Positions 58,330 to 62,325 of a stretch of DNA of 64,000 nt are shown piece by piece (the first letter of the stretch is position 1; every line of letters begins with the position of its first letter). The stretch lies in assembly GCA_022385755.1 (NCBI GenBank), contig MU278367.1, forward strand, positions 310,001-374,000, read 5' to 3'. Under the pieces are notes generated by a model. It saw only the letters and a list, made by a program, of their open reading frames with translations. It ran no database searches and had not been told where the DNA came from. This stretch comes from Trametopsis cervina (Eukaryota; Basidiomycota; Agaricomycetes; Polyporales; Irpicaceae). A program made the translations under genes and the position numbers.

Positions 58330-58955
58330 ATCATGAGGAAAGATCGACGGACGAAGTTGTGTCTGCTCCGGTTCTCTCATGCTCAGAGCCGCATATGTAT
58401 GATCTGGGCGCAATTTTAGGTTGGGTGTGAAGATCTAAAAATTATCGATTGGTCGTGCTGTTGATTACTCCCACAATACATCTCCCCGCCGAGCTGTACC
58501 AATGGTGGGTCCTACATTATACGATGCAGTTTCACCATGCTGTAACCAAAGCCGACTGTAACATTGCCATCCTTGAAAGCATCCAATATGCTCTTCTGTC
58601 GGTAGCTATGGCTTCTCCCTGCTGACTGCGAGTTTGCAGCGCATGATCACGAGCGTTTGCACCTCGCTATCTTTGAAAAACTTTTCGGGGAAATGAAGAC
58701 CGTCTGACCTGTGTCGGAGGCAGTGAGCGTTTGCTGAACGAGGGAAATTATTGATGGCAGGAACAGCATTGTTCGGCAAATGCCGAATGCAGACGTGTCA
58801 AATACGTGGCCGCAGTGAATTGACAACTCATTATCCTCCTCCCCTCCCGCCTCCACGTACGACCGCAGTTCACTTTCACCCATACAAGACCAGTTCACTC
58901 TTGGTTCTTTCCTCCACGTACTCTCAACGTTGACTCTCCCTCGCACTACTTCGTC
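58330..58955. other. Intergenic and likely HAC1 5' leader
   Basis: No gene is supported. The last 150 nt are C/T-rich, which suits a transcribed leader. Confidence 0.5.
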
Positions 58956-60034
58956 ATGACTTCCGTAAAACGATCAGCAGACTCTGCTTTCGTCGTCGAT
59001 GACTTCCCAGGGACACCTGAATCAGCACCCTCCCCAGCAGCCTCCACCTCAGATTACCCACCACGCAAGCGTTCGCGCTCAGAAGTCACACCTGAGGAAC
59101 GCAAAGAGGCTCGCGCCCACCGTAACCGTATCGCCGCCCAGAACTCCCGTGATAGGAGGAAAGCCCAATTCGCCCATCTCGAGCGTCGCGTAGCCGAGCT
59201 TGAAGAAGAGAACAGGCAACTACGGGCAGGCAAGAGTGTCAGTGTCACCTCAACATCACATGAGCAACAAACGAGAGACCTTGCACGAGAGAAAGAGAAC
59301 CATGAGCTCAGAGAGCGTATCAAGACGCTTGAGACTGGTTGGGACGCCGTCATCAAGGCCCTAGCGGCCTCCGGTCTTCCCTTGTCCATCCCCGCCCCAC
59401 CATCAATAACTGCAACGTCGTGTCCGGCCCCCTACACAACATCATCAATCACCCAACTCCCGCCTTCACCGGCACCCTCATCTACGAGCTCACATGGGTT
59501 TGAACTAGACGACTTCGATTCCGCTCGCCACCTAGCACGGGTGGCGACCACCGATGCCCCTCTTTTATCATCGGTGTCCCTGCAGCGGGCGGATTCGCAA
59601 CGAATCAACTTCAACTCGAGCTCTCCCCTTCCCCTTCTGCGTCGACTCCCCAACCGATATTCAGCGAGACATCGTCACCTTCCCCGGTCGACGAGGGCGT
59701 CATGGAAAATCTCCTCCGTGAGATCCTTGCGCCGTCACCCCTCCTCTCGTCAACGTCTCTACCTATCGGTATTACCAGCGAAGAGTCCCCCAAACCTCAA
59801 TCAGCGTCAATCGCGTCGCAGGTGACCTCCTCTTTGACGGAGACGACCCTGGATTGGGAAGGCGAACAGGAGATGCAGAGACTTTTGGACATGCTCCCCG
59901 ATGTCCACCCAGACATGAAGAACTTGGATGTAACCATTGACGCCGTCGACTTCTCAACATCGCTCGATCTGGACTTGAGCGGATGGGATTTGGGTTCGGT
60001 ACAACCGCCCCTTGTCGCAGTTGGCACGTTCTGA
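58956..60034 (+). CDS. HAC1: bZIP transcription factor of the HAC1/XBP1 type
   Basis: The frame from 58956 encodes a bZIP domain: basic region KEARAHRNRIAAQNSRDRRK at about residues 50-69, then a leucine zipper starting AHLERRVAELEEENRQL. Family members drive the unfolded protein response. This frame runs on to 59825 but turns Arg-rich and unnatural after about 59590. A second open frame (+2 relative) carries an acidic C-terminus with activation-domain character (TLDWEGEQEMQRLL, DLDLSGWDLGS) and stops at 60034. Joining them needs removal of a stretch of length 2 modulo 3, as in known Ire1-spliced fungal HAC1 introns. No convincing GT-AG intron does this. The span given covers both frames. Confidence 0.82.
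59549..59585 (+). promoter_or_regulatory. Candidate Ire1 splice-site region in HAC1 mRNA
   Basis: CACCGATG (59549-59556) and CATCGGTG (59569-59576) form an 8-bp hairpin with a 12-nt loop. Just after it, CTGCAG (59580-59585) followed by CGGG fits the CNG/CNGN pattern of Ire1 cleavage loops, and the flanking bases can pair (TGTCC with GGGCG, two G-U pairs). The partner site is not resolved. Confidence 0.4.
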
Positions 60035-60466
60035 AAACATTCTTGTTCTTAATTTATTCCACATTCCGGGTCATTAGGTCTTTTTCTTCGCATCCTCCCT
60101 CAATTTGTTTTGTTCTTGATCTTGGTTTCGTTTTTTTTTGGTTCATCATACCCCGCATATTCGCATATGATCGTCGCATTTCTTCCCCCAGGACTCGCTT
60201 CGTAGTTAACCTCCTTGGTACTGTCTCATCGTTTTCGTGGTCTTGATGCTGTCTCCCTTCGATCTCGACGGCTTTTCTCCCCTTTGGGTTGATGAATCGC
60301 CGTAGAGCTGTCGGTGAGCGCTCGAGTTTCATCGTCATGTTGTAGTACTGTCCGAGAGTGGTCATCTCTTAGCGATAATGAAGAAGATTGCGAACATCCA
60401 CACGTATTAGATGTGAAAGACCTGTCTGGATGAAGCAATCGTACGTACTGCTAGCAGTTGATCAAC
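60035..60466. other. Likely HAC1 3' region
   Basis: T-rich stretch with a T11-type run around 60130; no gene. Confidence 0.5.
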
Positions 60467-61186: not shown

Positions 61187-62325
61187 ATGTTGCAGCGGGT
61201 AAGCTGGGTGTTGGCTTGATTTCAAATATCTGACAGTTGCAGATTACTATCAACAGCCTACCTAACGAGCTACACCGCATGATCATTCAACATCTCGGAG
61301 ACCTGCTGGAACAAGAGCCTCGATTGCCCCGAGGAGTCCACGCGGTCATCCGCAAAACTCTTGCTGCATGTGCACTCACTCAGCGGACATGGCGCCACCT
61401 GAGTCAAACATTCCTCCACCGTGTCGTCACTGTACACTGCGGCTCTTTCAAAAAGTCTTTGGGTCGTTACATTGAGGCGCCACAGGGATACCACCCCATT
61501 TCTGCTGACATCTCACGATACCCACGGCAATTGCGTATCTTGAGTAACGATGTCGGTCGTGGTGGCGAGGTCAACTCGGACGAGTTCAAAGCCTTCGTGC
61601 AACGATGTGGACCCCGTATCACCCGGCTCAGCTTCGTCGCAAATAGCTTTTCACACCCTATCCAAGTCCTAAACGTCCTTGGCCAATTCACGTTCCTCGA
61701 ACAGGTGTCCATCTATCAGCGCTGGCCGGCATCCGTACCTCAGTTCACGCTCGATACCTATGACTTGAGTTCTGTTGTACCACCCGCTCCTTCCTTGAAG
61801 AGTATTTGCGTACGAACCGATCACCAAGGCCTACTGCGTATGATCCGCGACTGGCTGATGCTCAACCCGAGCTCGACCACCCGATATATTGCCCAGTCTC
61901 TGCAGGAGGCTCTCGAGGTCCATAGCGACACAAAGTCTTCCGAAGCTCTAGGCGACTCGTTCTCAAGGCCGTCTCCTACCCTAGCCAGTTCTCAGATCAT
62001 CGGTAGGAGCGATCAGAAGGCACATATCCAATCAGGCATTGTTCTGGGTGGTCAACCTGCAGGCGCCGACGTCCGGGAGTTGAGTAGCTGTGATGGGTGC
62101 ATGAGGCTTGCTCACTGCTGTGCGGTGGGGGTCGGAACGGGGGGTAAATCTCCTCAAAGTGTCTCACCATGGACGGGTCGGCGTAACGAACCTCAGCTCG
62201 CGGTCCAGCGAAGTCGGATACCACTAAAATGTATGTGGTCAAGATATGCTGAACTTTCCAACTCTTATGCATTGGTCATCGGACAATCTAGGTTTAGTTG
62301 CCAAGCTGGCGTGTATATTACTTGA
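61187..62325 (+). CDS. F-box-like protein, possibly truncated or frameshifted
   Basis: Exon 1 (61187-61198, ATG TTG CAG CGG) joins exon 2 (61243-62325) across a GTAAGC...TTGCAG intron. An F-box-like start (INSLPNELHRMIIQHLGDLL) is followed by conserved features of the fungal F-box superfamily (CALTQRTWRHLSQTFLHRVV). Up to about residue 215 the sequence looks protein-like. After that it becomes low in hydrophobic pattern and rich in Ser/Arg/Gln, which suggests a missed intron, a frameshift, or a decayed 3' half. The 3' boundary given is simply the first stop. Confidence 0.5.

Follow-up and report, generated by a model that had tools for sequence, protein, structure and literature searches.

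In yeast, the HAC1 intron is 252 nt long (PMC3154848, PMC6222058). Metazoan XBP1 carries a 26-nt intron bordered by loops of the form CNG^CAGN (PMC8674358; the caret marks the cut), and in C. neoformans HXL1 is interrupted by an unconventional, Ire1-dependent intron of 56 nt with CAG at both borders (PMC3154848). The HXL1 paper lists homologues in Coprinopsis and Laccaria and says that analysing these could give clues (PMC3154848). Ire1 is described as cutting 3' of the G at position 3 of a 7-nt loop (PMC4891664), and the decay sites of S. pombe Ire1 are UG^CU in stem-loops of variable size (PMC8674358). In the portion of the literature covered, no Ire1-type intron of this kind was found described for Agaricomycetes, and Hooks and Griffiths-Jones 2011 may cover some basidiomycetes.

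The window analysed here, a stretch of 64 kb of DNA from Trametopsis cervina, a fungus of the family Irpicaceae in the Polyporales, holds a bZIP gene that is very probably the T. cervina HAC1/XBP1/HXL1 regulator of the UPR, with an mRNA that carries a 47-nt Ire1-type intron at 59536-59582. Support comes from the sequence, the reading frames, the loops, the conservation pattern, the junction in two Trametes gene models and the machinery genes. The original prediction had described a gene split over two frames, a bZIP frame at 58956-59825 and another running to 60034, and both proved to be open. The coding features are as follows.

58956-59825, forward strand: unspliced frame 1 (open reading frame; PF00170/PF07716), a Hac1u-like product of 289 aa with a bZIP domain and a tail that is basic and poorly conserved
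59091-59228, forward strand: bZIP domain, residues 46-91 of frame 1 (PF00170, 3.2e-10; PF07716, 4.5e-10)
59536-59582, forward strand: proposed Ire1-type intron, 47 nt, G^CACG...CCUG^CAGC (based on the loops, conservation and the junction in P0091/P0100)
59583-60034, forward strand: second exon in frame 2, reading AGG...LQLEL...VMENLLREILAPSP...EMQRLLDMLP...VAVGTF, with an acidic C-terminus

Frame 2 is open over 59504-60034 (176 aa), and the two frames are open together over 59504-59825. Joining frame 1 to frame 2 requires the loss of 2 mod 3 bases, as had been predicted; removal of 47 nt gives an open product of 343 aa, in which DSARHLA is followed at the junction by AGGFATNQLQLEL. The acidic C-terminus expected of the second frame was recovered, with 22 D/E vs 4 K/R in the last 149 residues of the joined product. 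The 80-aa unspliced tail of frame 1 is basic (20 K/R vs 1 D/E). With a training set of only 3108 nt, taken from open frames of the Ire1 locus, codon log-odds favoured frame 1 until about 59535 and, starting at 59583, frame 2: values for frame 1/frame 2 were +2.3/-9.2 bits over 59400-59535, -0.7/+5.2 bits over 59583-59625 and -16.0/+9.0 bits over 59626-59825. This agrees with the earlier statement that the bZIP frame loses protein character near 59590. An Rfam search of 58900-60100 returned four matches, each far under the gathering score.

Other genes were noted in passing. A second bZIP gene, with an open frame of 346 aa, is found on the same contig at a distance of about 109 kb (G000:C20:478601-478753), and a third is on C40. 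Within the window, the open frame 61234-62325 contains INSLPNELHRMIIQHLGDLL close to its start and is F-box-like by eye.

Three structures were identified around the proposed intron.

59525-59547, forward strand: candidate 5' cleavage hairpin, 8-bp stem UCGCCACC/GGUGGCGA with the 7-nt loop UAG^CACG (59533-59539), from RNA folding and a stem-loop scan
59549-59576, forward strand: internal intron hairpin, 8 bp, from folding (pair probability 0.76-1.0)
59575-59591, forward strand: candidate 3' cleavage hairpin, five pairs including two G-U, loop CUG^CAGC (59580-59586), which fits CNG^CAGN

The sequence CTGCAGCGGG lies at 59580-59589. The CTGCAG/CGGG site that the original prediction had singled out is the likely 3' cut, between 59582 and 59583 in the loop CUG^CAGC. 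That prediction had named the 3' site and missed the 5' site, which we place in the loop 59533-59539 with the cut after G59535. Cutting after the G in the loops 59533-59539 and 59580-59586 removes 59536-59582, and hence 47 nt. The 8-bp hairpin it had pointed to is present as an inverted repeat (59549-59556/59569-59576), but is internal to the intron and is no cleavage hairpin. Its remark that the borders in this lineage may be new is in line with the 5' loop: UAGCACG has 7 nt and G3^C4, but its positions 1 and 6 do not follow CNG^CAGN. Of the paired 7-nt loops expected from RNA folding, the 5' hairpin is strong, but the 3' hairpin is weak.

All eight pairs of the 5' stem are Watson-Crick, with pair probabilities of 0.97-0.99 for the inner four and 0.37-0.84 for the outer four. 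In the lowest-energy fold, a U59533-G59539 wobble pair leaves five bases in the loop. The hairpin was the single match on both strands of the window to a perfect stem of at least 6 bp closing a 7-nt loop NNGCNNN. On the gene's strand, only two 7-nt loops, at 59533 and 59580, have G in the third position together with at least five pairs (G-U allowed). Pair probability for the 3' hairpin in T. cervina did not exceed 0.09; forcing its three inner pairs gave -34.0 kcal/mol and forcing all five -28.2, vs -38.1 kcal/mol unforced, a cost of about 4 and about 10 kcal/mol. In silico, this hairpin appears possible but weak. Six stretches were compared with shuffles. Folding z was -3.5 for 59515-59600 (1 of 200 shuffles as good), -3.4 for 59520-59610, -2.6 for 59510-59630 and -2.0 for 59500-59640; the 5' hairpin by itself (59500-59560) reached only -1.4, and the 3' site by itself (59560-59640) was no better than shuffles (+1.0). 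A yeast-like pairing of the intron with the leader (taken as 58750-58955) did not stand out, since 105 of 200 shuffled leaders paired as well.

Conservation was assessed in 120 homologues listed of 510 found. These include named species that we take to belong to the Polyporales, Atheliales, Thelephorales and Agaricales, and many carry the automatic UniRef name X-box-binding protein 1. In 92 of the 120, frame 1 continues across both sites, and the other 28 are joined earlier; five of the 92 (P0028, P0037, P0048, P0055 and P0120) have frame-2 C-termini, giving 33 joined models. The 3'-site pattern matched 94 proteins, and P0007 and P0009 were dropped as false matches inside joined models. These two and the five late-joined proteins were left out of the alignment, whose 88 rows are 87 read-through proteins and the window's own. 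The mean share of the commonest residue was 0.96 over RHLARVA and 0.98-0.99 over Q-R-V at the 3' site, with some residues preset by the search patterns (for the 5' motif R and V/L/M, for the 3' site Q or P). It was 0.55 for residues 198-205 between the sites, 0.87 for the bZIP domain, 0.60 for the upstream linker and 0.46 for the tail. The RHLARVA and QRV islands are conserved but not unique in frame 1: a SPAPS-like linker motif reaches 0.80-1.00 at P169, S171, P172, A173 and S175, W250 in the tail reaches 0.93, and the S-L just upstream of the 3' QRV 0.65 and 0.75. The frame-2 C-terminus is conserved in relatives, whereas the frame-1 tail is not. A search with the frame-2 protein found eight proteins, seven of them C-terminal pieces that start past the sites.

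The 5' motif was matched in 111 of the 120 listed homologues; the nine without it are eight joined models and P0040, in which an A replaces the T that precedes RHLARVA. Proteins with the motif carry L-A-R (105) or S-A-R (6). These residues require U at loop position 1 (or C where Ser is encoded by TCN) and C or A at position 6, so that CNG^CAGN cannot hold at the 5' loop across relatives if this loop is the cut site. The departure from CNG^CAGN is thus apparently common to relatives, as judged from their protein sequences. A frame-2 protein of metagenome origin, P0126, shares 42% identity with that of the window and reads PPSTGGDHR; its loop would have to be UAGCACG, provided that its frame 1 encodes RHLARVATT. 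Model P0114 of T. coccinea (TTGGDHRCPSFIIGVPAAGG) agrees with CACGGGTGGCGACC.

Immediately before the 3' cut stands L in 68, Q in 21 and R in 3 of the 92 read-through proteins. These are residues that CNG codons can encode, which fits the loop rule while the residue itself drifts. One position further upstream, S (58) and P (32) predominate, with T and A once each, and S/P codons of the TCN/CCN type allow pairing with the G that faces them in the 3' stem. Residues facing each other in the 5' stem, scored in 91 of the 92 rows, were H-V in 87, H-M in one and Q-L in three, and no uncompensated H-L or Q-V was seen in these 91. A change from CAC/GUG to CAG/CUG would be a compensated one in the 5' stem; the three Q-L rows probably represent one lineage or event, and covariation was judged through protein sequences only. 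The spacing between the two motifs varies from 35 to 53 nt across relatives. Its 2 mod 3 length in the 92 proteins is fixed by construction, since each is one reading frame, and was not counted as evidence. The predicted intron between the two motifs is shortest in P0066 and P0079, at 38 and 35 nt. A search of viral and prokaryote contigs for DNA of relatives gave pattern matches and confirmed no relative.

Public models of this gene are joined in conflicting ways. P0016 (BDW22DRAFT_1486599) has 143 N-terminal residues in common with frame 1 and 174 C-terminal residues in common with frame 2, using the following intron.

59384-59508, forward strand: intron of the public model P0016, 125 nt, donor GTCCAT, judged spurious (translation of the join equals P0016 exactly)

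We regard this model as wrong because its GTCCAT donor is weak and it deletes a stretch conserved in relatives. Two of the 33 joined models, P0091 (Trametes maxima) and P0100 (T. elegans), have the Ire1-type junction TRHLA/AGG. The sequence TRHLAAGG corresponds to CTNG joined to CAGCGGG; if Arg is encoded next, as it is in the 111 proteins that have the stem motif, codon reasoning indicates that no AG acceptor can yield it. The junctions in the other 31 are DAPPGG-like (13) or HLAR/LEL-like (4), use frame 2 upstream (2), switch past the 3' site (5) or are otherwise joined (7); from their sequences, we read these as gene-prediction artefacts. A protein search with the P0091 junction returned 18 proteins, two of which, again P0091 and P0100, have it. 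P0083, from Trametes cinnabarina, which we take to be the same species as Pycnoporus cinnabarinus, is joined at HLAR/LEL. The P. cinnabarinus genome paper reports no clear Hac1 orthologue (PMC4101180); by its sequence, P0083 looks like the missing one.

Several GT-AG introns would join the two frames conventionally. One of them, 59574-59620 (GTGTCC...CGAG, 47 nt), is of the type that P0007 and P0009 appear to use, but takes out the frame-2 coding stretch AGG..LQLEL. The P0016 intron, 59384-59508, has CTNAY motifs ahead of its acceptor, and 59498-59535 (GTTTGA...CCTAG, 38 nt) has G at +5; both remove or cut the conserved FDS-RHLA stretch. G at +5 is absent from 14 of the 15 GT-AG candidates, and three others (ending at 59508) have CTNAY, so that none combines the two. 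Three introns in the Ire1 and Trl1 genes of this fungus were inspected by eye; two have the donors GTACGT and GTAAGT, and the third is unclear. Frame-1 conservation at RHLARVA and QRV is left unexplained by these introns, and we consider a conventional intron very unlikely. We judge it very unlikely that an Ire1-type intron uses the same 3' site with another 5' border, either G59556^C or G59553^A (26 or 29 nt) or the 23-nt DAPPGG form. CCG^ATG at 59551-59556 does satisfy C-3/G+3, and DAPPGG-like junctions occur in 13 public models. However, CCGATG sits in the stem of the internal hairpin, residues around such a border are variable (0.48-0.53 at 199-202), and the motif spacing of relatives counts against it. 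To judge from their translations, what the DAPPGG models take out is a 23-nt GT...CAG segment, which is too short for the spliceosome.

Dispensing with splicing altogether, either through -1 frameshifting into frame 2 or with frame 2 unused and the 289-aa protein as the product, seems highly improbable. The long overlap of the open frames would allow it, and the overlap contains one slippery-type heptamer in the right phase, CCCAAAC at 59789-59795. Conservation of frame 2 begins far upstream of this heptamer (AGG..LQLEL, VMENLLREILAPSP), no other slippery-type heptamer occurs within 59500-59819, and the conservation of the frame-2 C-terminus rather than of the frame-1 tail (0.46) also argues against it. 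The Ire1-type intron that had originally been predicted is supported as the best reading, by the frames, the loops, conservation and the P0091/P0100 junction.

The genome has one Ire1 RNase locus, adjoining a protein kinase domain, and one Trl1-type RNA ligase locus. An open frame further upstream gave a luminal-domain-like propeller match under the family cut-off. The RNase stretch reads KYRKYDGKSVQDLMRALRNK and, past a GTACGT intron, KHHYQDL; we take it to carry the catalytic residues. In the mechanism suggested by the 59536-59582 intron, frame 1 would be translated without stress into the 289-aa bZIP protein with its basic, poorly conserved tail. Under ER stress, Ire1 would cut behind G59535 in the 5' loop UAG^CACG and behind G59582 in the 3' loop CUG^CAGC. 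The Trl1-type ligase would then seal ...CTA G^CA GCG GGC..., giving the 343-aa protein with the conserved acidic C-terminus. Cleavage, ligation, stress dependence and activator function of the spliced form are what the sequence leads us to expect.

It is also reasonably probable that two unequal loops are present across Agaricomycetes, a canonical 3' loop of the CNG^CAGC type and a fixed, non-canonical 5' loop UNG^CN(C/A)G, and that the RHLARVA and [LQR]QRV codons are kept by selection on the RNA and not on the protein. If so, Ire1 in these fungi accepts a loop without C1 and G6, perhaps with G7 replacing G6, and the 5' loop UAGCACG would serve to probe the strictness of the loop rule for Ire1. 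The Ire1-type intron itself, with the borders proposed here, is of a known kind; the variant 5' loop is the new point. The proposal specifies an Ire1 intron to the letter for mushroom-forming fungi, and such an intron could account for the disagreement among public models of this regulator. A UPR regulator of this kind would be expected to matter for enzyme secretion in white-rot fungi.

The T. cervina gene, described from its DNA, resembles yeast HAC1 in encoding a bZIP regulator with a predicted Ire1 cut, Trl1 ligation and border hairpins (PMC3154848, PMC6222058). Unlike yeast HAC1, its intron is short, and its leader pairing is no better than shuffled. The 3' loop CUG^CAGC fits the CNG^CAGN of XBP1, and the 7-nt loop cut between positions 3 and 4 and the frame switch are likewise shared; the length of 47 nt, the extra internal hairpin and the non-consensus 5' loop are not (PMC8674358). 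The ligase also differs, RtcB for XBP1 and, by our search, a Trl1 type in T. cervina. S. pombe provides a precedent for a fungal Ire1 accepting sites beyond CNG^CAGN, although its sites serve decay and those proposed for T. cervina splicing (PMC8674358). Like the T. cervina gene, HXL1 is a basidiomycete bZIP gene with an intron of 2 mod 3 length downstream of the bZIP domain, a changed C-terminus and predicted stem-loops at the intron borders (PMC3154848). HXL1 is set apart by CAG at both borders and 56 nt, against a 5' border G^CAC and 47 nt in T. cervina, and by an additional conventional intron of 55 nt, whereas the T. cervina frame needs none (PMC3154848).
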